DNA of 64,000 nucleotides from Peribacillus simplex NBRC 15720 = DSM 1321 (GTDB lineage Bacteria; Bacillota; Bacilli; Bacillales; DSM-1321). The notes beneath the pieces were generated by a model. It was not told the DNA's origin. It ran no database searches and saw only the letters and a program-made list of their open reading frames with translations. Positions 23,672 to 44,597 of the stretch are shown one piece after another; the stretch's first letter is position 1, and every line of letters starts with the position of its first letter. The stretch is taken from assembly GCF_002243645.1 (NCBI RefSeq), contig NZ_CP017704.1:310001-374000 (forward strand), given 5' to 3'. A program made the translations under genes and the position numbers.

Positions 23672-23790
23672 ATGTTCCCCTTCTCACTATCGTATTTACT
23701 TATTATAACTATAATAATCATTTATTTTCCTTATTGTAAAACATTAGTTACGATAAATTATAAATAATCCAAATAAGGGGTTGAAAAACA

Positions 23791-29167: not shown

Positions 29168-29302
29168 TAGTCTCCTTTTTTGATTTTGTTATTCCAAACA
29201 TGATATCTTCTGAAAAACTATTAAGCTATTTGCCATAGTAATTCTATAAAGATAATACTTTTAAAAACTCCACCCCTTTCAAGGATAGGACTTTAATGCT
29301 AC

Positions 29303-30085: not shown

Positions 30086-30160
30086 TTATCATTATTCCTC
30101 CTAACACCATTATCTATTAAATTAGAATATTAAAAATATTAAAAATATTATCATGTTAAT

Positions 30161-30226
30161 GATTATACTTATAAGTTTTAATTAAATAAAATTAAAAATA
30201 TTAATATATAAATCATTATTACTAAC
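30161..30226 (-). promoter_or_regulatory. regulon element copy 1 (promoter of SDR 29303-30085)
   Basis: -10 TATAAT on the minus strand (30162-30167). The AT-rich block with TTAATTAAATAAAATTAAAA is at 30179-30198, and the distal near-dyad ATTATTACTAAC at about 30215-30226 is centred near -64 of the predicted start. Same layout as the other copies. Confidence 0.75.
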
Positions 30227-30244
30227 AATGAAAGAAAAAGCCCA

Positions 30245-30296
30245 GAAAAAAGAGAAGCCTCTTCGTCATTTGGACGCCGTGCTTCTCCTTTTTTTA
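30245..30296. terminator. terminator after cupin gene
   Basis: GAGAAGC (30252-30258) and GCTTCTC (30281-30287), with A-run and T-run on the outer sides and an inner CTTCGTC-containing loop. A similar hairpin follows the LysR gene at 32822-32866. Confidence 0.7.
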
Positions 30297-30305
30297 TAAA
30301 TCTAA

Positions 30306-30782
30306 CTAAAATTTAGTCACATCAATAGGTTCAATTCCTTCAGCCGCGCAATGTTCATAGTATCTTTTCAGGAATGTTTCCCAATTGTCTCTGGCAACAA
30401 TTTCTCCTTCTTCACCCAAATAGTCTAATGTTCCTTCTACAATATTGAAGGTGATAACATCTTCATCCCCTACAGCTATCGGCGTATGTTTGGAGCCTGC
30501 AGGCTCATAAACCATGTCACCAGGTTTGGAGATCCAAGGCTCCTCGAGGTATCTCCAAGTCCCTTGGACGGTATACACAATGACTGTTCCAGGATGGAAA
30601 TGGGCCGGAAGCTGCATTTTCGCAGGAACACATAATAACGTAACCGTCTGTCCTGTCACAGGGTTGGCTTTAAGCAATTTAAATTTCGCATCTCCAAAAT
30701 ATGGAATCCAAGGCAATTCATCTACACTAACATTACCTGCATGAAATACTTCTACTTCTTTTACGTCTTTTAAATTACTCAC
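30306..30782 (-). CDS. cupin, 2,4'-dihydroxyacetophenone dioxygenase-like
   Basis: A 158-residue single-domain cupin of the DAD family, which contains the iron enzyme that splits the C-C bond between the carbonyl and hydroxymethyl carbon of 2,4'-dihydroxyacetophenone. His61 and His63 in 'LPAHFHPGTVIVYTVQG' plus His99 in 'EPAGSKHTP' give a three-His site; 'GTWRYLEEPWISKPGDMVYEP' follows the family pattern. Its promoter carries the regulon element. The true substrate is not known: DAD-like cupins in catabolic clusters may act on other hydroxyketones or diketones. Confidence 0.8.
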   Translation of the reverse strand: MSNLKDVKEVEVFHAGNVSVDELPWIPYFGDAKFKLLKANPVTGQTVTLLCVPAKMQLPAHFHPGTVIVYTVQGTWRYLEEPWISKPGDMVYEPAGSKHTPIAVGDEDVITFNIVEGTLDYLGEEGEIVARDNWETFLKRYYEHCAAEGIEPIDVTKF

Positions 30783-30876
30783 TTAAAATCCCCTCTTTCA
30801 ATAAATATTTATTAAATCCGCTTATTGTTTTCGCTTTCATCAACAAGCAAATTAAATAGTTCGAATTTATTAATTT

Positions 30877-30942
30877 CAGTATATTCGTAATTATTAATTA
30901 AGTAAAATTGATATTTTTTAATTGCAATTAAGTATGATTAAT
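30877..30942 (-). promoter_or_regulatory. regulon element copy 2 (promoter of cupin)
   Basis: -10 TATACT on the minus strand (30878-30883). The AT-rich block TTAATTAAGTAAAATTGATA is at about 30894-30913, and the distal TTAAGTATGATTAA dyad at 30928-30941 is centred near -64. Confidence 0.7.
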
Positions 30943-30970
30943 TTATGCAACCACGTTATTTGGATGAAAT

Positions 30971-31759
30971 TTACTTAGCCCCAAGTCCACCATCAATAGT
31001 CAAAATATGTCCAGTACAATAATCAGATGCTGCTGAAGCTAAGTAAAGGAGTGCACCTACCAAATCATTGTCACTGCCTAATCTTCTAACTGGAACTTGT
31101 GAGGCAATGAAAGGGCCTGCTTTGTGTACAAGTGTTCCCGGTATTTCTGGGTTATTCATTCCTGTAGTGAAAACTCCAGGAGCAATTGAATTTACATACA
31201 CTCCATGTCGGCCCCACTTAACTGCTAAATCCTTCGTTAAAGTCATCACTGCACCCTTACTAGTTGTATATCCGACAGAATCTACTGCTTCCGGGTCAAC
31301 ACCTTTAAAGCCGATACTAGAAGAAATATTAATGATTTTACCGTATTCGTTATTAATCATATGTTTTCCAACTGCCTGACACATCAAGAATGTTCCTGTC
31401 ACATTTGTATCCAACATAGCTTGCCATTGTTCTAAAGGCATATCCGTAGCAGGAGACTCAAAAACTGTTCCGCTGCTGTTGACTAAAATTTCGATTTCCC
31501 CAAAATGAGAAACCGCTTTCTCCACACCTTGAACGACAGATTCCCGATCTGTGACATCCAATGATAGAGCAAGTGCCTGTCTTCCTAACGCCTCGATTTC
31601 TTTTACAACTGCTTCGCAAACCTCTAAACGCCGTGAACATACTACAACGTTTGCTCCGGCTTCTGCCAACGCCAGTGCCATTACACGCCCTAACCCGCTG
31701 CCGCCTCCGGTAACGATTGCTGTCTTACCATTTAAATCAAACAATTGGTTTAATGACAT
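30971..31759 (-). CDS. short-chain dehydrogenase/reductase (FabG/gluconate-5-dehydrogenase-like)
   Basis: A 262-residue SDR: 'IVTGGGSGLGRVMALA', 'NSSGTVFESP', catalytic Ser in 'NISSSIGFKG', Y-T-T-S-K, and C-terminal 'TGHILTIDGGLGAK'. The 'VVCSRRLEVCE' after beta-2 suggests NADP(H). Divergent from the LysR gene, with a shared 146-bp intergenic region that contains regulon element copy 3. Likely oxidises or reduces a hydroxy/keto intermediate of the regulon's pathway. Confidence 0.87.
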   Translation of the reverse strand: MSLNQLFDLNGKTAIVTGGGSGLGRVMALALAEAGANVVVCSRRLEVCEAVVKEIEALGRQALALSLDVTDRESVVQGVEKAVSHFGEIEILVNSSGTVFESPATDMPLEQWQAMLDTNVTGTFLMCQAVGKHMINNEYGKIINISSSIGFKGVDPEAVDSVGYTTSKGAVMTLTKDLAVKWGRHGVYVNSIAPGVFTTGMNNPEIPGTLVHKAGPFIASQVPVRRLGSDNDLVGALLYLASAASDYCTGHILTIDGGLGAK

Positions 31760-31817
31760 TCTAGTTCTCCTCCTGTTTTTTCGGAATATTCAAAGATTTT
31801 TAAATATTATTGATATT

Positions 31818-31884
31818 GATTATACTAATAAATTATAATTAAATAAAATTAAAGATTTTAATGTGGTAAGTAAGTATTACTAAT
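31818..31884 (-). promoter_or_regulatory. regulon element copy 3 (SDR/lysR intergenic)
   Basis: -10 TATAAT on the minus strand (31819-31824). TATAATTAAATAAAATTAAA is at 31834-31853, followed by GATTTTAAT. The near-dyad TAAGTATTACTAA (31871-31883) is centred about 65 bp upstream of the predicted start; its reverse complement TTAGTAATACTTA has the T-N11-A form of LysR sites. It lies 22 bp before the lysR ATG, so it would also serve autoregulation. Confidence 0.8.
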
Positions 31885-31905
31885 ATTTAAAAAAGGAGAA
31901 CAGTC

Positions 31906-32811
31906 ATGAATATTGAACAATTACTATATATCGTGGAAGTCGCAAAATACAGTTCTTTGTCTATCGCAGCACAGAATCTACATGTGACTCAATCCAACAT
32001 CAGCCAGTCCATAACCAACTTGGAAAAGGAGTTGGGGATTAAAGTTCTTAAGCGGTCACGGGGACACGGCGCTGTCCCAACCGATGAAGGAAGAATCATT
32101 CTGAAACTCGCCTATGAAGTACAAAAAAAACTTGAGGAAATAAAAGAGACTGCTAACTTATTGAATTCCACGGAAGTGGGGGAACTGAAAATATCGTCAT
32201 TACCCGGATTGATGACGTTCCTGGTAAAAGCGATAGCATCGTTTAGACATGATTATCCGCACGTAAATTTGGAGGTTGCCGATAAAAGTGGATCTGCTGT
32301 AATTGAAGATGTTCGACAGCATAAGACTGACATTGGACTGATTACGTATTCAAGTGATTTGAACATAAACATGGAAGGAATAGCTTTTGAAGCATTAATC
32401 GAAGGGAAGCAGAAAGTATATGTTTCTAAGCATTCTCCCTTAGCCATCCTTGGTACTATAACTCCGCATGATATACTTGATCAAACTCTCGTGACATACA
32501 AGGGTGAATTTATGCAGTATTTTGTACAAGAATTCTTTCATAAATATAAGCCCTTGAAAATCTTATTTACTTCAAATAATATGGATGGAGTTCTCCAAGC
32601 CGTCAATGAAAATTTGGCAATTACATTTGCTCCTGATTTCGTAATGAAAAACTATCCCCTTATCATTAATGGCGATATTGTTCCAATTGATTTGGGGTAT
32701 CATCCGACTGTAAATATTTCTTTAGGATTAGTTCGATCAGAGAATAAACATTTGTCCACTTTTGCCAACAAATATATTCATTATTTAAAATCAGAAATTA
32801 TTAAGAATTAA
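31906..32811 (+). CDS. LysR-family transcriptional regulator, likely master of the 30-44.6 kb regulon
   Basis: A 301-residue LTTR with HTH at residues 1-60 ('LYIVEVAKYSSLSIAAQNLHVTQSNISQSITNLEKELG') and effector domain from about 90. Excellent SD (AAAAAGGAG). It is the only regulator gene in the cluster and sits beside one of seven copies of a conserved promoter element with LysR-type geometry, including its own intergenic region. I infer that it activates the SDR, cupin, TauD, SDR and acyl-CoA-ligase promoters in response to a pathway intermediate. The effector is unknown. Confidence 0.88.
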   Translation: MNIEQLLYIVEVAKYSSLSIAAQNLHVTQSNISQSITNLEKELGIKVLKRSRGHGAVPTDEGRIILKLAYEVQKKLEEIKETANLLNSTEVGELKISSLPGLMTFLVKAIASFRHDYPHVNLEVADKSGSAVIEDVRQHKTDIGLITYSSDLNINMEGIAFEALIEGKQKVYVSKHSPLAILGTITPHDILDQTLVTYKGEFMQYFVQEFFHKYKPLKILFTSNNMDGVLQAVNENLAITFAPDFVMKNYPLIINGDIVPIDLGYHPTVNISLGLVRSENKHLSTFANKYIHYLKSEIIKN

Positions 32812-32821
32812 AACAGAAAAA

Positions 32822-32866
32822 AAGAGAAGGCTCTTCGTCTCAATGTGGGCGAAAAAGCTTCTCTTA
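32822..32866 (+). terminator. terminator after lysR
   Basis: AAGAGAAGGCT paired with AGCTTCTCTT, with an inner CTTCG/CGAA pairing, then TATTA. It is similar in sequence to the hairpin at 30252-30287. Confidence 0.65.
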
Positions 32867-32949
32867 TTACAAATCTTCTCTACCTTCACGATCATAACAT
32901 TTTGAATCTCTTGAACCGCACGCTTAATGATTTTTGTCCTGGTACCCAT
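32867..32949 (-). pseudogene. 5' remnant of 3-oxoacid CoA-transferase subunit B (scoB)
   Basis: From the ATG at 32949 (SD GGAGGG) the minus strand reads 'MGTRTKIIKRAVQEIQN', the conserved start of ScoB ('M...REKIIKRAAQEIQDGMYVNLG'). Similarity then stops and the frame ends within about 14 codons. It lies directly downstream of the scoA remnant, in normal scoA-scoB order. Confidence 0.65.
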
Positions 32950-33036
32950 ACTGTTAACCCTCCTAAAATTTGCATTGTAAATTTTGCGGTAAGTTACCCT
33001 TTAAAGGTGAGTTAAGTAGGTATGTCGGTACGGTGT

Positions 33037-33565
33037 TCAATTTTTTTTCACATAATTTTTTCCTTCCAATATCCTTTGGATATAGATCCCTGGTGTATGA
33101 ATCTCATCCGGATCAAGAGCAACCACTTCAACCATTTGCTCCACTTCGGCAATCGTAATCCTGCCTGCCGTTGCTGCGAGTGGATTAAAATTCCGCGCTG
33201 TCTTCCGGTAAACAAGATTTCCTAACGGTTCACCTTGCCATGCCTTACGAAGGCAAAGTCCCCAACAATTCCTTCTTCAAGAATATGCGTTCTGCCATTA
33301 AATAATCGGTGCTCTTTGCCCTCTTCAATCCATGTACCCACGCCAGTCGGCGTATGGAATCCCTGGATGCCAGCTCCTGTCCGAATTCTTTCCGCCAGCG
33401 TACCCTGGGGAACAAGCTCTACTTCCAATTCTCCACTTAAAAATTGCTTTTCAAAGATCTTGTTCTCACCTACCATAGCTTGCAACCATTTTCTTAATCT
33501 TTTTATTTGTAAGCAGTAAACCCATTCCCAATCTTCCACCCCACAATTGTTACTGCCCGCCTTTC
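33037..33565 (-). pseudogene. 3-oxoacid CoA-transferase subunit A (scoA) remnant, N-terminus lost
   Basis: Minus-strand translation gives 'SNNCGVEDW', then 'MVGENKIFEKQFLSGELEVE', 'LVPQGTLAERIRTGAGIQGF', 'TPTGVGT' and 'LEEGIVGDFAF'. In a second frame, 'LGNLVYRKTARNFNPLAATA' and 'AEVEQMVEVVALDPDEIHTP' follow, ending 'GIYIQRILEGKNYVKKN' and stop. These are the middle and C-terminal parts of ScoA with at least two frameshifts. The first roughly 90 residues are missing; sequence there switches to IS3 remnant at about 33557. The enzyme would have moved CoA from succinyl-CoA to a 3-ketoacid. Inactive. Confidence 0.85.
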
Positions 33566-34060
33566 GAGCTCTTCCAGCTTTTTTAGAAACTCATTTTCTG
33601 CTTCAAGGAATTTGATTCTCGCTTCGGCCTTCCTAAGTTGATCCTCTTACTGTGGCTTGGAAGAAGGGCATCCTGTACTTCCTTTTCCACGGCATTCCGT
33701 ATTAAGGAGGCCTTCCTCACCAAACCTTTCAAAGGTATCACGCCAGCGCTGTAGACAACGCTTAGGCTGTTCCTTACCAATTATTTCGAGATTAAATCCA
33801 TGTTCTATGAAAATTCAAGAGGGGGATTTCCCCTTTTTATATTTCTTATCAGCTTTTGTTTTAAATTCAGGATTATAGGAGATAGAACGCTCTGAAGGAC
33901 TTATGATAGTTGGATTCTTTTCAAGTTCTTTAATCTGAAATTCAGCATATATATTCTTACTCATAGAAACCCTCCGTCCATACTCATTACACCTATTGAA
34001 ACAAAAAAAACCGGATAAGGGACACTTTTTATGTGTGTCCGTTATCCGGGGGATAGTTCA
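33557..34060 (-). mobile_element. IS3-family remnant A (5' part only)
   Basis: Nearly identical in long stretches to 45327-45820. It holds the orfA start region (ATG at 33964, then 'EFQIKELEKNPTIIS', 'FNLEIIG' and '[11 protein letters not shown]' in broken frames) and the leucine-zipper part of orfA. The end reads TGAACTATCCCCCGG inward on the minus strand (34060 to 34046). The rest of the element, including the DDE domain, is missing where it meets the scoA remnant. Many frameshifts and stops; inactive. Confidence 0.75.
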
Positions 34061-34112
34061 AATAAAGAAGGCCCTCTACAGTTCAAATCATGTTACGAAA
34101 CTACTAAATTAC

Positions 34113-34268
34113 TTAATCCTCCACTTCAATATTATCATCAGCGTAAGTCTCGGATATCTTATCCTGACAACTCCAGCACTTACTGCGATTTCGCTCCATA
34201 ATAGCTAAATCTTCATGACACAATACACAACAGCCCATCTCGGAAACAGCCTTTTCATTTTTACACAT
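34113..34268 (-). CDS. small CxxC zinc-ribbon-like protein
   Basis: A 51-residue product starting at the ATG at 34268 with a strong SD (AAGGAGGG). It contains two cysteine pairs, 'GCCVLCHED' and 'KCWSCQDK', spaced 16-17 residues apart, the layout of a treble-clef or zinc-ribbon. The tail is acidic ('YADDNIEVED'). It begins 37 bp after the MFS stop on the same strand, so it is likely co-transcribed with TauD1 and MFS1. No family recognised; it might bind zinc or modulate a partner enzyme. Confidence 0.6.
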   Translation of the reverse strand: MCKNEKAVSEMGCCVLCHEDLAIMERNRSKCWSCQDKISETYADDNIEVED

Positions 34269-34305
34269 AGTTTATTTCCCTCCTTGATTCACCTATTAAT
34301 GATTT

Positions 34306-35595
34306 TTATACAATAACTTGTTCCTCAGTTTTTTTCGTTGTTTGACTTTGGTTCGCGGGACGGACAATGGTCCAAAACAATAATCCGATTACGAACATAA
34401 CCAAAGAAGTTACTTGGAAGCCATAACCATATCCAATTGCCTCTGTTCCTGCATACTGGATAAGATACCCGAATATGAGTGGAGCAATAATGCTTGCTGA
34501 ACTTGATAGAGCCACATAGGTCCCTTGAGCCTTTCCAATGTTTTTGGGAGAAAAGAATTCCATTAATATGGCGGGTGCGAGTGAAAGAATAACAATCGCA
34601 AAACCCGGAGCAAGGATAAAGAATAGAATGGAAATAGCACTAGAATTAAAGGCATTTGCAAGAAATAAACAAATAGCGGATAGCACCATCGTAATCCCTG
34701 CAACATTTATTCGTGCTTTACGAATATCTCCTGTTTTGCGATAAAGCCGATCCGATAACAAGGCAAATATAATTTGGCAAATGGCAGCAAAAAGAAAAGG
34801 TAAAGACACTGCAAGTTTCAACATTTTCCCATCAAAATGTTGAATTTCGGTGAAATATGCAGGAAACCATACCGCTTGAACGGACAATAACCAATAGGCA
34901 CATCCTGCACACAAAACGATAAAAATAAAATTTTTAGATAAAAGATACGGAAGAAACTGACGCCAAGAAACATTAGAAGAAATTATTGAGTGCTTATCTT
35001 CTTGATCAAAAGTATACGAACCGATTTCTTTTGGGCTTTCTTTTCCAAGAATCAACCATAAAACTAGCACCATTAGTCCAACAATCCCCATTGCTATAAA
35101 AGCAGATCTCCATCCATATCCATTGATCAAGGAGATTAATAATGGCGAAGCAACCGCTGGCCCGATTGTTGCTCCAAAGAGAACAGCGCCAAAGCCTATA
35201 CCATGTCTATGTTTAGGGAACCATTTTCCTATTATTGAAGTTGATATAGCAACTGCAGGACCTTCTCCTGCTCCCAAGACCATTCTTGTAATTACTAGCA
35301 GAGACAGACTGGAAACAAAAGGTGTGGTGAATTGAACAACCAACCAGACAAACGATATCCAAGTAAACATTTTTTTCGTATTTCTTGTATCGGCCATTCC
35401 CCCTAGAATGAAAGAGGAAAAGGTAAAGAACCAAAAAAACGAACTGCCGACAATTCCCCATTGTGAAGGACTTAAATGTAACTCTTTCATTAAAGGAACA
35501 GAAACCAAACCAATGATAATTTTATCAACCTGGTTGATCATACCTGAAGCTACAAGAATTAATAATATGATCCAAGAATATTTAGGTGTTTTCAA
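34306..35595 (-). CDS. MFS transporter (ACS-like), copy 1
   Basis: About 430 residues, 12 segments, with 'QVDKIIIGLVSVPLMKELHLS', 'GAGEGPAVA' and 'WFPKHRHGIGFGAV'. It is a close paralogue of the MFS protein at 40413-41714. I prefer the TTG at 35595 as start: AAGGGGAG is 9 bases upstream and the first residues (KTPKYSWIILL) then align with the ATG start of the paralogue. It follows TauD1 by about 115 bp. Probably imports the substrate of the regulon. The family favours organic anions. Confidence 0.87.
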   Translation of the reverse strand: MKTPKYSWIILLILVASGMINQVDKIIIGLVSVPLMKELHLSPSQWGIVGSSFFWFFTFSSFILGGMADTRNTKKMFTWISFVWLVVQFTTPFVSSLSLLVITRMVLGAGEGPAVAISTSIIGKWFPKHRHGIGFGAVLFGATIGPAVASPLLISLINGYGWRSAFIAMGIVGLMVLVLWLILGKESPKEIGSYTFDQEDKHSIISSNVSWRQFLPYLLSKNFIFIVLCAGCAYWLLSVQAVWFPAYFTEIQHFDGKMLKLAVSLPFLFAAICQIIFALLSDRLYRKTGDIRKARINVAGITMVLSAICLFLANAFNSSAISILFFILAPGFAIVILSLAPAILMEFFSPKNIGKAQGTYVALSSSASIIAPLIFGYLIQYAGTEAIGYGYGFQVTSLVMFVIGLLFWTIVRPANQSQTTKKTEEQVIV

Positions 35596-35709
35596 ATTAA
35601 TAATCTCCCCTTCTATTCCGTTAACATGAATCAATTAGTGTTTTAAAAGTTTTTAAAGGTAAACCTTCCGTGTTTAACCTCGTCTAAACTCTTATATTTA
35701 TTAATCCCA

Positions 35710-36765
35710 TTACCTCATTTTATCTGTAATACCTCCAGCTGTTTTTTCACGTACCGGAATACCGCCGCGACCCGCTTTACCTGTTTTCTCATCAATGAAC
35801 ATCGCGAAGTCTGGCGCAATTTCTCGCCCATTTGGCATCGTGAGCCACAATCTTAATAAATGACGTTTTCGTTCAGGTTCTTCATAGTCTTCGTATACAG
35901 TACGTGAATGAAGAACAGTATAATTATTAACAAATTGCATATCACCCGGTTCCATCATCATATCAATATGCATGTTTTCATCATATAGGAGGGAATCTAT
36001 TAAGTCATATGCTTCAGTTTCAACTTTTGACAAATATCTCCCTGTTTTTGTTTGTGCCGATTCGACATATCCGCGGTTATATCTGCAGCTTAATTTTCCT
36101 TTGTAATAACTAAAGACTGGTGATGAATAAACAGGAGATTCACCTGGTGTTTCCTCACCACGACGATCCAAGAAATATGGAAGATAGAGAACTCCAAGAT
36201 ACTCTGGGTACCTATCCAGAATTTCATTGTAAACCGCGATGGAACTTACGATACTACTGTAACCGCCAGCTTTAGCTTTTCGAAGACTTAATAATCCGAC
36301 TACGTCAGATCCATCTGGGTGAAAGGGAAGATGAGCATTCGTTTGGTAACCACGTACATTTGAATCATTAATGTCGAGACCTTGGTCAACAACATGCCCT
36401 AATAAATCACCTTTTGCGTTTTGCGTTACCGGGATGCCTAGGTGGACTCCGAGACCCCAGTAAATGATGCTTGCTTCTTCATCTGTATACTTTTCAATTG
36501 GTAAGCCACGAATTAATAGAAAACCTCTCCCATTTTCCAACTCGTTTATAAAGTATGCTATTTTGTCAGAAAGATCCGGAATTGGAAAGTCCTCCTTGTT
36601 AAAATCAGGTGCCTTTAACCCTTTTTGTTTTACATAAAATAAAGCGCTTTCAAGATTTGCAATCGCTTTCTCTGACAAATAATAAATCCATGAATCATCT
36701 TTTTCTAAATCAATACCTTTCCAAGCCACTGGTCCTTGAATTTTTTTCTTTAAAATAGACGGCAC
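35710..36765 (-). CDS. TauD/TfdA-family Fe(II)/2-oxoglutarate dioxygenase, copy 1
   Basis: A 351-residue member of the TauD/TfdA/clavaminate-synthase-like superfamily. The facial triad is visible: His149 and Asp151 in 'LPFHPDGSDVVGLLSL', distal His286 in 'NNYTVLHSRTVYED', and the 2-oxoglutarate-binding Arg in 'KRHLLRLWLTMPNG' (Arg301 or Arg305). GTG start with AGGAGG 7 bases upstream. Its promoter has regulon element copy 4 and a cre-like box. Paralogues lie at 39270 and 41809. It probably hydroxylates a carboxylate substrate or removes a side group; exact substrate unknown. Confidence 0.87.
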   Translation of the reverse strand: MPSILKKKIQGPVAWKGIDLEKDDSWIYYLSEKAIANLESALFYVKQKGLKAPDFNKEDFPIPDLSDKIAYFINELENGRGFLLIRGLPIEKYTDEEASIIYWGLGVHLGIPVTQNAKGDLLGHVVDQGLDINDSNVRGYQTNAHLPFHPDGSDVVGLLSLRKAKAGGYSSIVSSIAVYNEILDRYPEYLGVLYLPYFLDRRGEETPGESPVYSSPVFSYYKGKLSCRYNRGYVESAQTKTGRYLSKVETEAYDLIDSLLYDENMHIDMMMEPGDMQFVNNYTVLHSRTVYEDYEEPERKRHLLRLWLTMPNGREIAPDFAMFIDEKTGKAGRGGIPVREKTAGGITDKMR

Positions 36766-36921
36766 CGAGAATCCTCCTTCGTATTCTATTGCAATTTTAA
36801 CTATAGTACCTAATGAGTTTGGGCTGTTTTCCTACTTAAAAGCGACTGCCACTATCTTTCAAGCCCTTATACAACAATTATTGCTTAATAAATGTTGTTC
36901 CTTGTTCCCCCCTCACTTCCA

Positions 36922-36935
36922 TGGAAGCGCTTCAA
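36922..36935 (-). promoter_or_regulatory. candidate cre (CcpA) box before TauD1
   Basis: TGGAAGCGCTTCAA fits TGNAANCGNWWNCA with one mismatch. It lies about 30-40 bp downstream of the predicted transcription start, a roadblock position. Confidence 0.5.
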
Positions 36936-36969
36936 ATAACTTCTGACTGTTATAATTGTTATTCCATTA

Positions 36970-37034
36970 ATTATATTCATAATTTTCAGTTAAATAAAAT
37001 TAAAATTTTTAATCTGCAAATAACCTTTACTAAT
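36970..37034 (-). promoter_or_regulatory. regulon element copy 4 (promoter of TauD1)
   Basis: -10 TATAAT on the minus strand (36970-36975). Block GTTAAATAAAATTAAAATTT is at about 36989-37008, followed by TTTAAT. Distal TAACCTTTACTAA (37021-37033) is centred near -64. Confidence 0.75.
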
Positions 37035-37085
37035 AAATGGAAAATATAACACCCTTGTACATGGCAATCTTACAACACATATCTT

Positions 37086-37154
37086 TATATTAATAAAACT
37101 TAAGTGCAATTTAATATTTTTAATTTTATATAATTATAATTTATAGGTAGAATC
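37086..37154 (+). promoter_or_regulatory. regulon element copy 5, inverted (promoter of SDR 37238-38011)
   Basis: On the plus strand: distal near-dyad TTAATAAAACTTA (37090-37102, centre -64), block AATATTTTTAATTTTATATA (37113-37132) followed by ATTATAATTTAT, and -10 TAGAAT (37148-37153). It is the reverse orientation of the other copies and belongs to the only plus-strand enzyme gene of the regulon. Confidence 0.7.
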
Positions 37155-37237
37155 AAAGATAGAAATGATTAAATATTCTAATAAATAACTTTCAAGCAGA
37201 GTCTAATACAAGTTAATTCGAAACAGGAGGTTGAACT

Positions 37238-38011
37238 ATGGACTTAAAATTATCTGGAAAAAAAGCACTTATCGTTGGAGGAAGCAGGGGGATTGGCAAA
37301 GCTATTGCCCGTCAGTTGGCTTTGGAAGGTGTAGATTGTACGATTTGTTCAAGAAACGAATCTTCACTAAAGAATGCAGCAGACGAATTGGCCAAAGAAA
37401 CCAACAGAAGTATTTATCCAATCGTGGCAGATACTAATGATCCTGACTCTATCCTAAATTTAGTTGAAAAATCAGCAGCAGAAATGGGAAGCATTGATAT
37501 TTTAATCAACAGTGGAGCCCGTGTTGGTGGCCATGAACCAGAGGAATTTAACAGCATTAAAGATGAACTTATCTTGAAAGATTTTGAAGAAAAGTATTTG
37601 GGCTATTTTCGTTGTATCCGGGCTGTTGCTCCTTATATGATCCAAAATAATTGGGGACGTATTATCAATATAAGTGGTCTGGCAGCTAGAATTGGCGGCA
37701 ATTATTTTAGTTCCGGACCTCGTAATGCATCTGTTGTCCATATGACAAAATCCGCATCATTAGAATTAGGAAAGCACGAAATTACTGTCAATGCTGTTTA
37801 TCCAGGGATTGTCGATACGGAAACGTTTAGAGGCCGTGTCACTAATGAGGAAGCTATACGCCAGGCAGCATCAATGAATGCCCTTGGCCGCTTGATTACA
37901 CCAGAGGAAATTGCTTATGCCGTTACCTTCCTTGCCTCACCTTTGGCGGCATCGATAACTGGCGATGTCATTTCGGTAACCGGTGGAATTGGAAATACCG
38001 TTTATTACTAA
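37238..38011 (+). CDS. SDR-family oxidoreductase with atypical active site
   Basis: A 257-residue SDR with normal cofactor motif 'IVGGSRGIGKAIA', Ser in 'NISGLAARIGG' and ending 'TGDVISVTGGIG'. The usual Tyr-x-x-x-Lys is absent: the region reads 'NYFSSGPRNASVVHMTKSAS' (Tyr156, Arg162, Asn163), so Lys is replaced by Asn and the Tyr is displaced. Some divergent SDR groups show this R-N pattern. Good SD (CAGGAGG). Divergent from TauD1, with its own inverted regulon element. May be catalytically altered; substrate unknown. Confidence 0.82.
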   Translation: MDLKLSGKKALIVGGSRGIGKAIARQLALEGVDCTICSRNESSLKNAADELAKETNRSIYPIVADTNDPDSILNLVEKSAAEMGSIDILINSGARVGGHEPEEFNSIKDELILKDFEEKYLGYFRCIRAVAPYMIQNNWGRIINISGLAARIGGNYFSSGPRNASVVHMTKSASLELGKHEITVNAVYPGIVDTETFRGRVTNEEAIRQAASMNALGRLITPEEIAYAVTFLASPLAASITGDVISVTGGIGNTVYY

Positions 38012-38090
38012 ATGCCTAGGGTTGCTATTGTTACAGTTTCGTTGATTATCAATAATTTCTATTTTAAAAATTAAATAGGTTATTTTAAAA

Positions 38091-38120
38091 AGCGAGCCTC
38101 ACTAAAATCTGAGGCTCGCT
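38091..38120. terminator. bidirectional terminator
   Basis: An 11-bp stem AGCGAGCCTCA / TGAGGCTCGCT with an 8-base loop and flanking A/T tracts. It lies between the convergent SDR and esterase genes. Confidence 0.8.
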
Positions 38121-38139
38121 TCATTTAGAACATTTTCTT

Positions 38140-39102
38140 TCAATCTATCCCTATTGTATATTTCAAGGAACTCAAGAACTTCTCGATCCTAGAAACAGTC
38201 AATTCTATGTTCTTTGAGAAAATGGCCATTTGTACAAAAAATCCGTGGACCATCCCGGGTTCACATTCATATTCAACTTGTACACCAAAATCTTTCAGAC
38301 GTTCAGCATAGGCCATTCCTTCATCCCGAAGCACATCATTTTCCGCTGTAATAACAATTGCTGGCGGGAGATCACTTAAATCTTGAGCTACCAAGGGGGA
38401 AGCATACTCATTACACCTGTCCTCAATATTCCTTAAATAATGATTACGGAACCAAATCAACTGTTCTCGATCAAGACCAAATCCTTTTGCAAAGGTTCGA
38501 TGGGATTCCGTATTGAACTCAAGATTTGTCGCAGGATAGATTAAGACCTGTGCAGTGATGTTTGGACCTTTTTTGTTTCTCGCCATCATCGTAACTACAG
38601 TCGCTAGATTTCCACCTACGCTATCCCCTCCAACTACCAATCGAGAAACATCTCCGTTAAATGAAGTCCCTTTTTCAAAAACCCATTGCAATGCGGAATA
38701 GGCGTCTTCTACTGGAGTCGGAAACTTATACTCTGGAGAAAGACGATAGTTTACGGATACAACGATACTTTCCGTTCGATTCGCTATCATTCGGCAGCTA
38801 GCATCCGTTGAATCAATGTCTCCTAGAACCCATCCTCCACCATGGTAGTAAATAAATAGAGGGAAAGGACCTTGCCCCTCCGGTATATATACCCTGCATT
38901 TGATTGTTTCATCCTGGCTTACCGGAATCATGAAATCCTCAACTTTTGAAAGCGGTTCTAGTTTTACAGCAGGACGTGGAGCTTTAGAAAGCATCTCTCT
39001 TACTGACTTATGATCCATCGTATGAATAGATGGCAGCTGATTAAATGCTTGTAAATATTTTTCTGCTAGCGGATCTAAATTTGCCAAAAAACTCATCCTC
39101 AC
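38140..39102 (-). CDS. alpha/beta hydrolase, HSL (family IV) esterase
   Basis: A 320-residue lipase/esterase of the hormone-sensitive-lipase family. Oxyanion motif HGGGW is in 'FIYYHGGGWVLGD', nucleophile Ser in G-D-S-V-G-G (normally GDSAGG), Asp in 'ITAENDVLRDEG' and His in 'EPGMVHGFF'. The start is uncertain: GTG at 39102 or ATG two codons on; neither has a strong SD. It lies downstream of TauD2 (167 bp away, with a hairpin between), so it may be only partly co-transcribed. Probably hydrolyses an ester or lactone of the same pathway. Confidence 0.87.
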   Translation of the reverse strand: MRMSFLANLDPLAEKYLQAFNQLPSIHTMDHKSVREMLSKAPRPAVKLEPLSKVEDFMIPVSQDETIKCRVYIPEGQGPFPLFIYYHGGGWVLGDIDSTDASCRMIANRTESIVVSVNYRLSPEYKFPTPVEDAYSALQWVFEKGTSFNGDVSRLVVGGDSVGGNLATVVTMMARNKKGPNITAQVLIYPATNLEFNTESHRTFAKGFGLDREQLIWFRNHYLRNIEDRCNEYASPLVAQDLSDLPPAIVITAENDVLRDEGMAYAERLKDFGVQVEYECEPGMVHGFFVQMAIFSKNIELTVSRIEKFLSSLKYTIGID

Positions 39103-39193
39103 TTCAGGTTATTTTTAACTTACCCAGTCTATATTCGAAACCATTATTCCTGTCACGAAACTCTCAGATTAACTTCAAAATAAAAATATAAAA

Positions 39194-39233
39194 TGGTGAT
39201 TTTATTCATCATTTTCGTTGAATAAAATCACCA
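39194..39233 (-). terminator. hairpin after TauD2
   Basis: A 15-bp perfect stem TGGTGATTTTATTCA / TGAATAAAATCACCA (39194-39208, 39219-39233). A second, smaller hairpin GGTGAT/ATCACC lies at 39246-39263. They sit between TauD2 and the esterase gene. Confidence 0.65.
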
Positions 39234-39269
39234 TACAAAAATAGTGGTGATTATTGTTATCACCGGTTT

Positions 39270-40268
39270 TTATCTAATTACAGGTGCTCCCCCTATATAA
39301 AACTCGAAACCTGGAGCAATTTTTCGGCCATTTGGCATCATGAGCCACAATCTTAATAAATGACGTTTGCGGTCTTCTTCTTCATAATCTACAAATAGTG
39401 TACGTGAATGAAAAACGGTATAATTATTAACGAATTGCATATCACCCGGTTCCATCATCATATCAATATGAAAGTTTTTATCAGCAGTAAGGGAATCTAT
39501 AAAATTAAATGCTTCGATTTCCTCTTTCGACAAAGAGATACCTGTTTTCGTTTGTGCTGATTCGACATATTGACGTATATATCTGCAGCTTAATTTACCA
39601 TCGTAATAGCTAAAGACCGGTGATGGAACTACAGGAGATTGACCTGGTGCTTCTTCCCCACGAAGATCATGGGCAAATGGACGATAGAGAATTTCAAGGT
39701 ACTCTGGGTGATTATCCAGAATTTCATTATAGATAGACATCGCACTAGCGATACTGCTTAAACCGCCAGATTTCGCTTTACGAAGACATAGTAATCCGAC
39801 AACATCAGCGAGATCTGTGTGATAGTCAAGACGTACATTCGTTTGGTAACCTCTTACTGTTGTATTATCATTAAAGTCTTTACCCATATTTTTGATATGC
39901 CCTAAGAGGTCACCCTTTTTTTCTTGAATGATCGGTAGGCCTAAGTGAAGTCCAAGACCCCAGTAAATGATACTAGCTTCATCGTCGGTATATTGATCCA
40001 TTGGTAATCCACGAATCAATAGAAATCCTCTCCCATTCTCCAGCTCGTCTACAAAATAAGCAATTTCATCAGCGAGATCAGGAATCGGGAAATCCTCCTT
40101 GTTAAAATTGGGAGCCCTTAACCGTTTTTGCTGAACATGTAATACAGCCTTTTCAAGAGCTGCGAGGGTTTTCTCTGACAAATAATAAATCCATGAATCA
40201 TCTTTTGCTAGTTCGATACCTTTCCACGCTGAACGCCCTTGAATTTTTTCCTTTAAAATAACTGACAT
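39270..40268 (-). CDS. TauD/TfdA-family dioxygenase, copy 2
   Basis: A 332-residue paralogue of the proteins at 35710 and 41809. His-Thr-Asp triad is in 'RLDYHTDLADVVGLLCL', distal His in 'YTVFHSRTLFVDY', and Arg in 'KRHLLRLWLMMPNG'. It is shorter at the C-terminus, lacking the 'DEKTGK.GRGG' tail of the other two, and differs in the pocket region (DLADVV for DGSDVV), so it may prefer another substrate. SD GGAGG before the ATG. It has its own, diverged copy of the regulon element upstream, although it follows MFS2 in the same direction. Confidence 0.85.
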   Translation of the reverse strand: MSVILKEKIQGRSAWKGIELAKDDSWIYYLSEKTLAALEKAVLHVQQKRLRAPNFNKEDFPIPDLADEIAYFVDELENGRGFLLIRGLPMDQYTDDEASIIYWGLGLHLGLPIIQEKKGDLLGHIKNMGKDFNDNTTVRGYQTNVRLDYHTDLADVVGLLCLRKAKSGGLSSIASAMSIYNEILDNHPEYLEILYRPFAHDLRGEEAPGQSPVVPSPVFSYYDGKLSCRYIRQYVESAQTKTGISLSKEEIEAFNFIDSLTADKNFHIDMMMEPGDMQFVNNYTVFHSRTLFVDYEEEDRKRHLLRLWLMMPNGRKIAPGFEFYIGGAPVIR

Positions 40269-40333
40269 ACATATTCCTCCTTTATATTTGTTATACCACT
40301 TTAATAAACGGAATATTTTGAATTTATTATTTA

Positions 40334-40405
40334 TGGTACACTTATTAATTAAATGAAATTATCTTTGTAACTTATAATTAAGTTAGATCAATATAATCTT
40401 ACTAA
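40334..40405 (-). promoter_or_regulatory. diverged regulon element copy 6 (before TauD2)
   Basis: Contains TTAATTAAATGAAATTAT and a distal TAATCTTACTAAG, but the spacing to the best -10 candidate (TGTACC) is about 7 bp longer than in the other copies. A weakened or altered version. Confidence 0.4.
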
Positions 40406-40412
40406 GAATCTT

Positions 40413-41714
40413 TCAATCTACGTTTATACTCACTTGCTCATCTTTTTCAATTATTGTGTAGCTTTCCTTTGCGGGACGTACACCGATCCAAAACAATAAT
40501 CCGACTATGAGCATCCCTAAAGAAGAGGCTTGAAATGCGTATCCGTATCCGATAGCTTCAGTCGCTGCATTTTGAATAAGATAGCCAAATACGAGTGGAG
40601 CAATAATACTTGTAGTACTTGCAAGTGCAATGAACGTCCCTTGTGCCTTTCCAATATTCTTGGGAGAAAAAAACTCCATCAATATTGCAGGTGCGAGTGA
40701 AAGAATGACATACGCAAAACCCGGAGCAAGGGTGAAGAACAATATGGATATCGCCGTGGAATTCGCGGCATTTGCTAGGTATAAGCATAGAGCTGATAAC
40801 ATCATCGTTATACCGGCAAGATTTATTCGTGCTTTACGAATATCTCTTGTTTTACGATAGAGCCGATCTGATAGAATGGCAAATCCTAATTGGAAAAAGG
40901 CTGCAAAAAGAAAAGGTAAAGACACGGCTAATTTTAATGTTTGACCATTAAAATGTTGAATTTTGGTAAAATAGGCTGGAAGCCATACCGCTTGTACGGA
41001 CAATAACCAATAGGCACCCCCCCCGCACAAAACGATCAGAATAAAATTTTTAGATAATAGATGCGGAAGAAACTGACTCCAAGAAACTTTAGAGAGGCTG
41101 GATGATTGCTGCTCCTTTTGCTGTATCGACGGGCAGCCGATTTCTTGAGGACTTTCTTTTCCGAAAATCATCCATAAAACCAGCACAATCAGTCCCAGAA
41201 TACCCATCGCTATAAATGCAGATCTCCATCCATAATGATCAATCAAGGAGATCAATAATGGTGAAGCGATCGCAGATCCCCCTGTCGTTCCTAACAGAAC
41301 CGCACCAAAGCCGATGCCGTGCCTATGTTTCGGGAACCATTTTCCCATGATTGCCGTGGATAGAGCTGGGGCAGGACCTTCACCAGCTCCCAAAATCATT
41401 CTGGTTAACAAAAGCATAGACAAACTGTTAACGAAAGGGGTGAAAAATTGAACTATCAACCAAATCAACGACATCCAAGTTAACATTTTTTTCGTGTTTT
41501 TTGAATCGGCCATGCCGCCAAGAATAATAGAGGAGAAAGTAAAGAACCAAAAGAAAGAACTTCCTACAACTCCCCATTGAGATGGACTTAAATGTAACTC
41601 TTTCATTAAAGGAACGGAAACCAAACCAATAATTATTTTATCCACTTGGTTGATCATCCCGCTAAGAACTAGAAATAATAAGATAATCCAAGAATATTTT
41701 GGAGTGCTTGTCAT
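40413..41714 (-). CDS. MFS transporter (ACS-like), copy 2
   Basis: About 433 residues from the ATG at 41714 (MTSTPKYSW), chosen because GGGGAGA is 5 bases upstream and the further upstream codons are unlike the family. Close paralogue of 34306-35595 along the full length, sharing 'WFPKHRHGIGFGAV', 'FSPKNIGKAQGT' and 'RKARIN'. It follows TauD3 by about 95 bp, repeating the TauD-MFS order of the other module. Likely transports the same or a related compound. Confidence 0.87.
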   Translation of the reverse strand: MTSTPKYSWIILLFLVLSGMINQVDKIIIGLVSVPLMKELHLSPSQWGVVGSSFFWFFTFSSIILGGMADSKNTKKMLTWMSLIWLIVQFFTPFVNSLSMLLLTRMILGAGEGPAPALSTAIMGKWFPKHRHGIGFGAVLLGTTGGSAIASPLLISLIDHYGWRSAFIAMGILGLIVLVLWMIFGKESPQEIGCPSIQQKEQQSSSLSKVSWSQFLPHLLSKNFILIVLCGGGAYWLLSVQAVWLPAYFTKIQHFNGQTLKLAVSLPFLFAAFFQLGFAILSDRLYRKTRDIRKARINLAGITMMLSALCLYLANAANSTAISILFFTLAPGFAYVILSLAPAILMEFFSPKNIGKAQGTFIALASTTSIIAPLVFGYLIQNAATEAIGYGYAFQASSLGMLIVGLLFWIGVRPAKESYTIIEKDEQVSINVD

Positions 41715-41808
41715 GTAAATCTCCCCACATTTTCCTATATAAGGAACACCTTTTTCTGTGCTCTGAAAAGGTGTTCCCACTCGTCCTTACTAAACGTTTT
41801 ATAAAAAA

Positions 41809-42864
41809 TCACTTCAGGGTTTCTACAATACCGCCAGATGTTGTTTTACGTTGTGGTACGCCGCCGCGACCTGATTTACCCGTATTCTCATCAATAAACA
41901 TCGCGAATTCCGGGGAAATTTCCCGACCATTTGGCATTGTGAGCCACAATCTTAAAAGATGTCGTTTGCGTTCCGGCTCTTCATAGTCTTCGTATTGAGT
42001 ACGTGAGTGCAGAATCGTATAATTATTGACGAACTGCATATCCCCTGGCTCCAGCATCATGTTATAATGTAAATTCTCATCATGAAGGAGGGAATCCAGT
42101 AAGTCTAATGCTTCAATTTCCACTTTTGATAATTGGATGCCTGTTTTTGCTTGTGCTGATTCGATAAATAAACGGACATATCTACAGCTCAGTTTACCTT
42201 CATAATAATTAAAGATTGATGATGTAAATACTGGAGGTTCTCCCGGCGCTTCCTCTCCACGACGATCAAAGGAAAATGGACGACAGAGAACTCCTAAATA
42301 TTCCGGGTTCTTCTCCAGAATTTCATTGTAAACAGTCATCGAACTGATGATACTGCTGTGACCTCCAGATTTCCCTTTTCGCAGGCTTAATAATCCAACA
42401 ACATCAGATCCATCAGCATGAAATGGAAGATGCAGTTTCGTTTGGTAACCACGTACATTAGAATTTTCTAAGCTAAAACCTTGATCTTTGACGTGCCCTA
42501 AGAGGTCACCATTTGCGTTTTGCGATACCGGAATGCCCATGTGAAGTCCGAGACCCCAGTAAATGATGCTTGCTTCTTCATCTGTATACCTATCAATAGG
42601 TAATCCACGAATTAATAGGAACCCTCTCCCATTCTCCAGCTCTTCAACAAAGTAAACGATTTCTTCATATATATCAGGAATCGGAAAATCCTCTTTGTTA
42701 AAATCAGGTGCTTTTAAACCCTTTTGTTTAACATGAACTAAAGCGTTCTCAAGAGAGGCAATCGTTTTTTCAGACAAATAATAAACCCATGAATCATCTT
42801 TAGCCAGGTCAGTGCCTTTCCACGCTACTTGCCCTTTAACTTTTTTCTTTAAAATGGTTGACAT
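41809..42864 (-). CDS. TauD/TfdA-family dioxygenase, copy 3
   Basis: A 351-residue paralogue very close to copy 1 (same length, same C-terminal 'DENTGKSGRGGVPQR' region). His-Ala-Asp is in 'LPFHADGSDVVGLLSL', distal His in 'YTILHSRTQYEDY', and Arg in 'KRHLLRLWLTMPNG'. It lies 34 bp after the acyl-CoA ligase stop, so it is co-transcribed with it from the element at 44500. Fe(II)/2-oxoglutarate-dependent oxidation of an unknown substrate is inferred from family membership. Confidence 0.87.
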   Translation of the reverse strand: MSTILKKKVKGQVAWKGTDLAKDDSWVYYLSEKTIASLENALVHVKQKGLKAPDFNKEDFPIPDIYEEIVYFVEELENGRGFLLIRGLPIDRYTDEEASIIYWGLGLHMGIPVSQNANGDLLGHVKDQGFSLENSNVRGYQTKLHLPFHADGSDVVGLLSLRKGKSGGHSSIISSMTVYNEILEKNPEYLGVLCRPFSFDRRGEEAPGEPPVFTSSIFNYYEGKLSCRYVRLFIESAQAKTGIQLSKVEIEALDLLDSLLHDENLHYNMMLEPGDMQFVNNYTILHSRTQYEDYEEPERKRHLLRLWLTMPNGREISPEFAMFIDENTGKSGRGGVPQRKTTSGGIVETLK

Positions 42865-42898
42865 AATTAATCCCCCTTTTAGTAAGTTGGTTCATTTC

Positions 42899-44419
42899 TT
42901 ACTTCACTTCAGTCAATTCTCTTAACTCTCTGCGCAAAATCTTCCCTGTTGAGCTCTTAGGCAGCTCTTTAAAAAATTCTACTCGTTTAGGAAGTTTGTA
43001 CTTCACCAGCTTATCCTGACAGAATTGGATAATGTCATTCATGGTGATCTGATCATCCTTAACTACGACAAAAGCTTTAACACTTTCTCCGTATTCCGCA
43101 TCTGGAACTCCGATTACGGCTGCCTCTACCACAGCAGTATGTTGATACAGGACTTCCTCCACTTCACGAGGATATACATTGTAGCCTCCAACAATAATAA
43201 TGTCCTTCTTGCGGTCAACAATGTAGATGTATCCTTCTTCATCCATTGTTGCGAGATCACCAGTGTAAAACCATCCCTCATTAAAAGCAGCTGAAGTAGT
43301 TTCCGGCATCCCCAAATATCCCTTCATTACATTTGGCCCTTGAACAACTAATTCTCCGACTTCTCCTCGCGGCAATTCTTTTCCGAACTCATCTACAACT
43401 TTGCTTTGGACAGCTGGAATATTCAAGCCGATAGAACCTGGCTTGCGAGTTCCTTTTAAAGGATTAATAGCGACGAGAGGAGCAGTTTCCGAAAGCCCAT
43501 ATCCTTCCAAGATAGAAACATTAAACTTGTTTTCAAATTTATGCAGCAGCTCTGCCGAAATCGAGGCACCTCCAGAGATACACATGCGAATAGATTGGCA
43601 ATCCTCCGCAATCGCTTCAGGCAATTGATAGATAAAACTGTACATCGTAGGTACTCCAGCAAACACGGTTGCCTTTTTTTCTCGAATGGTGCTGACCACG
43701 TCATGAGGGCTGAATTTAGGCTGGATCAGGACTGTAGCCCCACAAGCAATTGGCGCATTCAGACAAACAGTCATACAGAATACATGGAACATTGGCAGAA
43801 CTGCTATGACACGATCTTTAATATCGAATTCTAATAATTTTGAAATGGAGTCCGCATTTGAAACCAAGTTCCGATGCGTTAACATTGCACCCTTTGGTTT
43901 CCCGGTTGTTCCTGATGTGTATAGAATGACTGCAAGATCTTCATCATCAATGTAAGGGCTTCCATAAGTATTAAAGCTTGTGCTTGTTTCCATGAGATGC
44001 TCCCATGTCGTTTCCTGATTCTCAGCTTCGGTATAAACCACAAGCTTCAGATTTTCCAATTGCTTTTTTACTTCTGATAACTTCGATTCTAAAGATACAT
44101 GAGTAATGACCGCTTTGGCTTGACAATTGTCTAATAAGTAATTGATTTCCCCTTGGGTATAAAAAGGATTGATCGGAACAACAAATGCACCAAGCCGTAA
44201 AATACCGTAGTACGCAATGAGAAATTCAGGGCTATTTCCTAAAATAAGAGCCACTCCATCTCCCTTCCTGATTCCTTGTACATACAGACCAGCAGCCAAT
44301 TGATCCACCTTCTGATTAAGTTCTTGATAAGTAACACTTTTATCTCCATAGATATAAGCGATACTTTCTGGGAAATTACTTGCGCTTCTTTTTAGATTTT
44401 CGTTTAAGTTATAACTCAT
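42899..44419 (-). CDS. acyl-CoA ligase (AMP-binding)
   Basis: A 506-residue ANL-superfamily ligase. P-loop 'LYTSGTTGKPKGAMLTH' (A3), 'GYGLSETAPL' (A5), 'FYTGDLATMDEEGYIYIVDR' (A7/A8) and catalytic Lys in 'PKSSTGKILRREL' (A10) are all intact. It activates a carboxylic acid to acyl-CoA via acyl-AMP; substrate length cannot be read. First gene of the run ligase-TauD3-MFS2(-TauD2-esterase). Its promoter has the best-conserved copy of the LysR-type element. It probably feeds the regulon product into beta-oxidation. Confidence 0.9.
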   Translation of the reverse strand: MSYNLNENLKRSASNFPESIAYIYGDKSVTYQELNQKVDQLAAGLYVQGIRKGDGVALILGNSPEFLIAYYGILRLGAFVVPINPFYTQGEINYLLDNCQAKAVITHVSLESKLSEVKKQLENLKLVVYTEAENQETTWEHLMETSTSFNTYGSPYIDDEDLAVILYTSGTTGKPKGAMLTHRNLVSNADSISKLLEFDIKDRVIAVLPMFHVFCMTVCLNAPIACGATVLIQPKFSPHDVVSTIREKKATVFAGVPTMYSFIYQLPEAIAEDCQSIRMCISGGASISAELLHKFENKFNVSILEGYGLSETAPLVAINPLKGTRKPGSIGLNIPAVQSKVVDEFGKELPRGEVGELVVQGPNVMKGYLGMPETTSAAFNEGWFYTGDLATMDEEGYIYIVDRKKDIIIVGGYNVYPREVEEVLYQHTAVVEAAVIGVPDAEYGESVKAFVVVKDDQITMNDIIQFCQDKLVKYKLPKRVEFFKELPKSSTGKILRRELRELTEVK

Positions 44420-44499
44420 TAAATGAATTCCACCCCTTTTCTCACATAGAAGGCTTTGAATGCCAACTTTTTTGAATATTTAAACTATTATTACATTTT

Positions 44500-44565
44500 A
44501 AGTATACTCATAAATTATAATTAAATAAAATTAAAGATTTTAATTTGTATGTAAGTATTAATAAT
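44500..44565 (-). promoter_or_regulatory. regulon element copy 7 (promoter of acyl-CoA ligase)
   Basis: -10 TATACT on the minus strand (44501-44506). Block TATAATTAAATAAAATTAAA (44516-44535) followed by GATTTTAAT is identical to copy 3. Distal TAAGTATTAATAA (44552-44564) is centred near -64. Confidence 0.8.
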
Positions 44566-44597
44566 ATTAAAAAGGAATTTCAGGATAACAGAAGGGC

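Follow-up and report, generated by a model that had tools for sequence, protein, structure and literature searches.

Among prokaryotic transcription factors, LysR proteins are said to form the largest family (PMC4730206). Their recognition site is described at about -65, with activation sites closer to the promoter and a dimer shift upon induction (PMC4730206, PMC5603801), and PMC5603801 reports no agreed activation-site motif. Second and third dyads have been described for six gammaproteobacterial members, OxyR dyads IR1, IR2 and IR3 lie at -66, -44 and -35 before oxyS, and it is cautioned that adjacent sites and a promoter can fuse into one long motif (PMC5002191). Here, we describe an element of about 70 bp that is repeated six times in a gene cluster of Peribacillus simplex NBRC 15720 = DSM 1321, within a stretch of 64,000 nucleotides (contig NZ_CP017704.1, positions 310,001 to 374,000) that we call the window and whose coordinates are used throughout. 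Our reading, to which we give a probability of about 0.85, is that the repeat serves a LysR-type activator as its control region and recurs ahead of most transcription units in a single catabolic pathway, with binding by the LysR protein of the cluster being a prediction.

The cluster lies within 29-44.5 kb of the window in a genome of 5.65 Mb, and contains three short-chain dehydrogenases (SDRs), a cupin, three TauD dioxygenases, two MFS transporters, an esterase, an acyl-CoA ligase and one lysR gene. The six copies are alignable over approximately 70 nt with 79% mean column identity. Each carries a -10 box of the form TATAAT, TATACT or TAGAAT at constant spacing, except for one additional base in the SDR2 copy, and all six 13-mers have the T-N11-A form. 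With the predicted transcription start (+1) placed 7 nt past the -10 box, the dyad is centered at about -64, as had been proposed in an earlier sequence-only reading together with the same -10 boxes. The copy preceding the only SDR gene on the plus strand is inverted, as was also proposed, and its dyad center is 69 bp from that of the TauD1 copy.

Scores refer to a core matrix built from the 48-nt ungapped core of the six copies, a first model (R1), or a second model (R2) for which 86 matches were taken from loci outside this genome. Across the window, the core matrix gives 42-54 bits to the six sites, 4.8 to a diverged seventh place, -0.7 to the reverse strand of a site and -0.9 to the best unrelated place. 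When each copy is left out in turn, it still scores above every non-site (18.9-48.3 bits versus 8.2 or less). By R2 the same six come out on top, at 36.5-51.6 bits within the window and at 36.4-50.4 bits genome-wide, where the next place has 13.5, and the elements are limited to the cluster, at 46-54 bits versus a next-best of 13. All six sites of the sequence-only reading therefore stand, and the motif does not recur at random AT-rich sites, one of the outcomes named there as refuting, as nothing else exceeds 13.5 bits genome-wide by R2. The bare 13-mer is uninformative, with 214 genome matches at two or fewer mismatches against 719 for the reversed pattern.

Table 1. Positions of the repeated element and of cluster genes in the window
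Feature	Coordinates	Strand	Details
SDR1, short-chain dehydrogenase	29303..30085	-	Pfam
Element before SDR1	30159..30229	-	T-N11-A dyad 30213-30225 (-); 46 bits R1, 36.5 R2
Cupin, related to 2,4'-dihydroxyacetophenone dioxygenase	30306..30782	-	Cupin_7; PDB 3ebr E 9.2e-43, 5bpx E 1.5e-15
Element before cupin	30874..30945	-	Dyad 30929-30941 (-); 48.1 bits R1, 39.6 R2
SDR2, short-chain dehydrogenase	30971..31759	-	Pfam, NCBIfam
Probable lysR promoter, TTGATA-18-TATAAT	31810..31839	+	Best promoter-like match of 16.5-kb scan, 11/12; overlaps SDR2 element
Element before SDR2, in lysR-SDR2 intergenic region	31816..31888	-	Dyad 31871-31883 (-); 53.7 bits R1, 49.7 R2
lysR, 301 aa, proposed regulator	31906..32811	+	Pfam HTH_1 and LysR_substrate
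3-oxoacid CoA-transferase subunit A remnant	33222..33539	-	Full-length frame behind own element in some relatives
TauD1 dioxygenase	35710..36765	-	Pfam TauD
Element before TauD1 and MFS1	36967..37037	-	Dyad 37021-37033 (-); 51.5 bits R1, 45.4 R2
Element before SDR3, back to back with TauD1 copy	37085..37156	+	Dyad 37090-37102 (+); 51 bits R1, 42 R2
SDR3, short-chain dehydrogenase	37238..38011	+	Pfam
TauD2	39270..40268	-	Downstream of doubtful seventh copy
Diverged, doubtful seventh copy before TauD2	40339..40404	-	4.8 bits at 40357-40404 (core matrix); 13.4 bits at 40339-40394 (R2)
Acyl-CoA ligase, first gene of probable ligase-TauD3-MFS2 unit	42899..44419	-	Pfam
Element before acyl-CoA ligase, TauD3 and MFS2	44498..44569	-	Dyad 44552-44564 (-); 53 bits R1, 51.6 R2

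A seventh site before TauD2, previously placed at 40334-40405, is indeed the best of the remaining places, but it is weak and diverged by both scores and was rejected as an ordinary site. By R2 it has an E value of 0.006 in the window, matches model positions 2-58 and is followed by the best unrelated place at 11.2 bits. By eye, the diverged form persists upstream of TauD2 in eight Peribacillus (the window included) and in loci L071 and L072, and it is not recognizable in L070, L074-L077, L080, L081 and L059. On present evidence its function is doubtful and it should not be counted as a functional site.

Scans of cluster loci in relatives gave 59 + 86 = 145 matches, from which four below 10 bits by the core matrix were dropped to leave 141, of which 130 are unique; one of those retained (L066, 10.3) probably reads a site on its reverse strand, and about 22 of the copies are effectively independent (125 gap-free rows). 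Across the 130 copies, conservation is sharp from about -73 to -4, amounting to 0.7-1.1 bits per base over -71 to -4 and 0.15-0.18 in both flanks. Mean values per base are 0.18 bits upstream (-113 to -76), 0.85 in the recognition 14-mer, 0.95 at -49 to -37, 1.07 at -36 to -30, 0.77 at -29 to -17, 1.12 in the -10 box and 0.15 downstream, and aside from the -10 box the AT-rich block is the most conserved part of the element. The frequencies of T and A in the T-N11-A dyad centered at -64 multiply to 0.92. Symmetry is best at -64, -43 and -23, centers with a nearly fixed T-N11-A at which mean pairing is 0.62, 0.78 and 0.66, respectively; centers -33 and -27 have T-N11-A with weak symmetry, whereas -40 and -39 have equal symmetry without it. 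Three T-N11-A dyads spaced 20-22 bp apart arose in none of 5000 column shuffles. The consensus -35 is poor (TTTATT, with 17-bp spacing) and the -10 is good.

Description as a merged motif, comprising a recognition dyad, one or more activation dyads and a -10 box, appears to suit the element well. In common with the classical LysR promoters, represented by PnpR with pnpA, pnpB and pnpC, by BenM and by NahR/DntR, it has T-N11-A near -65, a putative activation site near -35 and several operons of one pathway (PMC5603801, PMC4730206). Unlike them, it occurs as six almost whole-length copies in 15 kb, with an activation half conserved at the level of single bases, in an AT-rich Gram-positive host. 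The OxyR-type architecture shares a recognition dyad with an adjacent second dyad about 21-22 bp away (-64 and -43 here); however, the third OxyR dyad lies about 9 bp from the second, whereas here the third is weak at -33 and stronger at -23, and the second dyad, reported as the least conserved for OxyR, is the best one here at -43 (PMC5002191). The regulated genes also look catabolic, unlike those of the OxyR system. What would set this system apart is the base-level conservation of the activation half, together with the recurrence of an entire promoter unit ahead of most genes.

Two further sequence features were noted in the leaders. AATATTC, mostly from about 19-31 nt past the -10, is present in 60 of the 130 unique leaders against 2.7 expected from Markov shuffles; by gene it is found for ligase in 13/16, SDR1 12/19, SDR2 22/23, SDR3 12/22 and TauD2 1/1, orthologs not being independent, and among these 130 in none of the cupin, TauD1, MFS1, CoA-transferase or thiolase leaders. 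In the window, it is in the leaders before SDR1, SDR2, SDR3 and the ligase. In the cupin leader, 30826-30839 (-) fits the cre pattern of CcpA (catabolite repression), as do MFS1 leaders in relatives. This cre-like pattern is matched exactly over 15 nt in 12/27 cupin leaders, another 13/27 have at least three mismatches to the 14-mer, and 29 places across the window have two or fewer mismatches.

The protein encoded by lysR has an N-terminal HTH_1 domain (5.8e-16) and a C-terminal LysR_substrate domain (7.8e-25), which at 301 aa agrees with the length of about 300 aa of LysR-type regulators. Family and domain order are shared with CidR, GltC and AlsR, LysR regulators of Bacillus/Staphylococcus; however, its NCBIfam scores are far under the curated cut-offs (124 bits of 415 for CidR, 101.6 of 350 for GltC and 87.4 of 430 for AlsR), and it is therefore none of the three. 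The gene is divergent from its putative target SDR2 with the element between them. Outside the cluster, 22787-24831 holds a second LysR gene (22787-23671) divergent from a conserved-hypothetical-698 protein. Another LysR in the same genome (L021, G000:C1:204203-205081), 42% identical, has a weak element (5.7) and then a gene for an acyl-CoA dehydrogenase downstream of it on its own strand. Genome G120 has two lysR copies (L126, L096), 77% and 76% identical to that of the window, with a 54-bit element beside each.

Occurrence of the element follows that of close LysR orthologs. In 43 genomes of the family, a set to which stricter filters apply as it exceeds 40 genomes, R1 matches of at least 20 bits occur in nine, which are exactly those with a LysR ortholog of at least 79% identity, and the remaining 34 give 18.7 bits or less. 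In 397 genomes of the order, the element is found at E 0.001 in 11 and LysR at E 1e-70 in 16; the 11 are those with LysR identity of at least 72%, and the five others (40-46%) have no element match at E 0.001. The two sets overlap, with three positive genomes and a number of negatives in both. The search of related genomes suggested by the sequence-only reading thus yields up to seven copies before orthologous genes in relatives of several Bacillales genera, rearranged clusters included. For the 145 matches, the closest gene mapped downstream is the cupin in 28, SDR2 in 27, SDR3 in 22, SDR1 in 19, ligase in 17, TauD1 in 14, MFS1 in 7, CoA-transferase in 5, TauD2 in 2, MFS2 in 1, thiolase in 1 and another gene in 2; since several loci are the same genomes fetched twice, these are counts of matches and not of genomes. 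In the rearranged cluster of G010 (LysR 79%), copies precede SDR2, SDR3, ligase and, weakly, the cupin, and a 56-bit copy with a 308-nt leader precedes a thiolase near lysR. In Sporosarcina globispora (L081), a 55-bit copy lies close to lysR without a mapped target; the first sizeable frame that follows encodes a solute-binding protein and is 473 nt away.

In neighborhood maps that each cover about 20 kb, lysR and the cupin are the only mapped cluster genes present locally at L125 (G422) and L082 (Lysinibacillus xylanilyticus, G424), with a generic 33% SDR in addition at L125, and the whole element is retained at both. One clear R2 match occurs per genome, at 33.3 and 29.0 bits (next 16.6 and 16.1), and in both it precedes the cupin. 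Both copies were among the R2 training rows, but R1, never trained on them, gives 23.6 and 12.3 bits, and a later matrix trained with the G422 copy excluded gives the L125 copy 29.8, with the next best place in the locus at -8.3.

We also scanned 23 loci of LysR relatives at 38-46% identity, each oriented by lysR. A diverged element lies beside lysR in 20 of them, facing different enzyme genes, which indicates that the element follows LysR and not one enzyme. In six loci the best place is the lysR-divergent region (L010 20.9, L091 19.9, L092 16.6, L019 9.7, L023 5.8, L013 0.6), scores equalled by 0-1 of 500 Markov shuffles. Another 14 loci have their best place just past the lysR 3' end on the same strand (2.7-13.6): 13 mutual orthologs (L011, L012, L014-L018, L021, L022, L024-L027; 40-42%), in which the element is 60-70 nt past the end, and L093 (4.3). 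When the after-lysR regions were shuffled as stretches, 0/1000 were as good for L015, L016, L024 and L026 and 1/1000 for L011 and L021. For comparison, the highest background score is -6.4 among 93,524 positions of the window that lie outside the cluster, and 21 chance loci picked by R1 in genomes without this LysR clade reach 0.1 at best. Chance in AT-rich DNA was rejected as a source of the repeat by such real-background scores, together with the leave-one-out test and the genome-wide scans; an RNA element was likewise rejected, as no Rfam family reaches its gathering score in 29000-45500. The genes faced are acyl-CoA ligases (L010, L092, L013), aldehyde dehydrogenases (L091, L023), acyl-CoA dehydrogenases (L011, L021) and, in L019, a metallo-beta-lactamase-fold protein whose start is about 600 nt away. 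Seven or more of eight far elements agree with the consensus at T-49, A-37, TTTA at -35 to -32, T-18, A-17 and most of the -10 box, among other columns, a tally in which well-conserved columns are favored because the places were chosen by score.

Several observations weigh against a LysR-type activator control region. The activation half is conserved as well as or better than the recognition half (0.95-1.07 versus 0.85 bits), unlike the usual LysR picture; the dyad at -33 is weak, with mean pairing of 0.50; and in the stricter of two controls, Markov strings judged by a looser consensus test, the spacing of the three dyads occurs in 3.3%, which is not significant, the spacing test itself having been devised after the pattern was seen. 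Among the far relatives, three of 23 are without a convincing element: the best place of L020 (-11.4) and of L094 (-4.9) is in the divergent region but weak, and near the lysR of L095 there is none. The divergent regions of the 13 after-lysR orthologs score like shuffles, their element being between lysR and the next gene, and because 13 of the 14 after-lysR cases are orthologs of one locus, the far cases amount to about five independent ones. T-70 matches in five of the eight far elements and is missing in three. Finally, the cupin is found in the same 11 of 397 genomes as LysR, and therefore co-occurrence in this set alone cannot single out LysR.

Alternatively, another regulator might bind the AT-rich block at -49 to -17, with LysR a passenger or limited to the -64 dyad. 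The block is the best conserved part apart from the -10 box, PMC5603801 and PMC4730206 describe LysR activation sites as having no conserved motif, and the cupin is distributed identically to LysR. However, lysR is the sole regulator among the proteins scanned in 29-45 kb (open reading frames (ORFs) of at least 100 aa), an HTH_21 fragment at 44972-45460 looks transposon-derived, the second LysR gene of the window is outside the cluster, the minimal lysR-cupin loci keep the element whole, and diverged whole elements adjoin lysR in far relatives where other genes are faced; we consider this explanation quite improbable. Control by LysR could also be exerted in the opposite sense, with LysR repressing the promoters and a metabolite lifting the repression. 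Although the -43 and -23 sites overlap the polymerase-binding region, -64 is the usual activator position (PMC5603801), and a poor -35 with a good -10 is as expected of activator-dependent promoters, leaving repression unlikely.

It is also conceivable that the copies are recent duplications of one promoter that resemble each other through common origin and not through use. Within one genome, copies that precede different genes share 70% identity, and several have AATATTC downstream. Nevertheless, in a chosen set of representative loci, copies before the same gene across genera (0.79) are more alike than copies before different genes in one genome (0.70), flanks reach 0.43 and 0.34, and conservation ends sharply near -73 and -4. 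Recent duplication is therefore very improbable, although copying long ago followed by selection is possible; homogenizing gene conversion was tried as an explanation and rejected. The sequence-only reading had named the cluster LysR as the natural regulator, and this assignment gains from its position, the T-N11-A form, confinement to the cluster, co-occurrence, the minimal loci and the far relatives. Judged from sequence, a real, conserved, LysR-linked promoter regulon is well supported.

With LysR-dependent activation as the preferred reading, the element would consist of a T-N11-A recognition dyad near -64 and activation-site dyads near -43 and, less surely, -33 and -23. The cluster LysR may be bound constantly at the -64 site as a tetramer; upon binding of a pathway metabolite, the second dimer would shift on the activation site and RNA polymerase would start from the -10 box. 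A single copy before most units (the three SDRs, the cupin, TauD1-transporter and ligase-TauD3-transporter, and in relatives also 3-oxoacid CoA-transferase, transporter or thiolase) could in this proposal allow scattered and partly inverted units to be induced together. The copy at 31818-31884, originally assigned to both SDR2 and lysR, points at SDR2 and for lysR would be at most autoregulatory, enabling LysR to repress itself. Its dyad ends 22 nt ahead of the lysR start codon, and autorepression is likely because the probable lysR promoter overlaps the SDR2 element and the dyad would lie downstream of the lysR start; the promoter scan as a whole was uninformative (61 found versus 50.3 expected).

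With regard to the genes, the three TauD dioxygenases are 67-75% identical to each other and the two MFS transporters 77%; TauD2 is related to FrbJ and to a predicted hydroxylase, the esterase is hormone-sensitive-lipase-like, and 3ebr is an uncharacterized cupin. Thiolase and acyl-CoA dehydrogenase genes are located at 26-29 kb. At 33222-33664, all that is left of a CoA-transferase is a fragment of subunit A, next to a short stretch similar to the transposase-associated ORF at 44972-45460. This gene, overlooked in the sequence-only reading, is broken in the window and carries its own element copy in relatives: a subunit A frame of 237-246 aa lies behind an element in L060 (G028), L062 (G027, where the element is weak), L070, L073 and L074, and in L070 the A and B genes of 3-oxoacid CoA-transferase are both behind it. 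A peripheral pathway ending in a 3-oxoacid and thiolytic cleavage is plausible. Naming the pathway through plasmid records of TauD did not succeed, as all 22 are less than 60% identical (49% being the best among the matches listed) and both annotated stretches compared have unlike surroundings. TauD3 was not found in G422 and G424, in a search that had no positive control, and a literature search found no publication treating Peribacillus, LysR and TauD together and no description of this system.

Regardless of the substrate, the element and its LysR offer a computational handle for collecting genes of an uncharacterized catabolic pathway. For a single regulator clade, the material brings together 130 distinct promoters of almost invariant spacing in at least five named genera, so that alignment, followed by mutation, can tell recognition positions from activation positions. 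We tentatively suggest, as a possibility and not as our favored expectation, that a Bacillales LysR sub-family uses a portable promoter cassette of about 70 bp, copied from gene to gene, whose activation half (-49 to -17) is recognized at the level of single bases and conserved more deeply than the recognition site. If so, the regulon would have grown by promoter replication and not by operon building, and an activation-site code of the kind that PMC5603801 and PMC4730206 describe as not yet found would, for one LysR clade, be given by the 130 natural variants.

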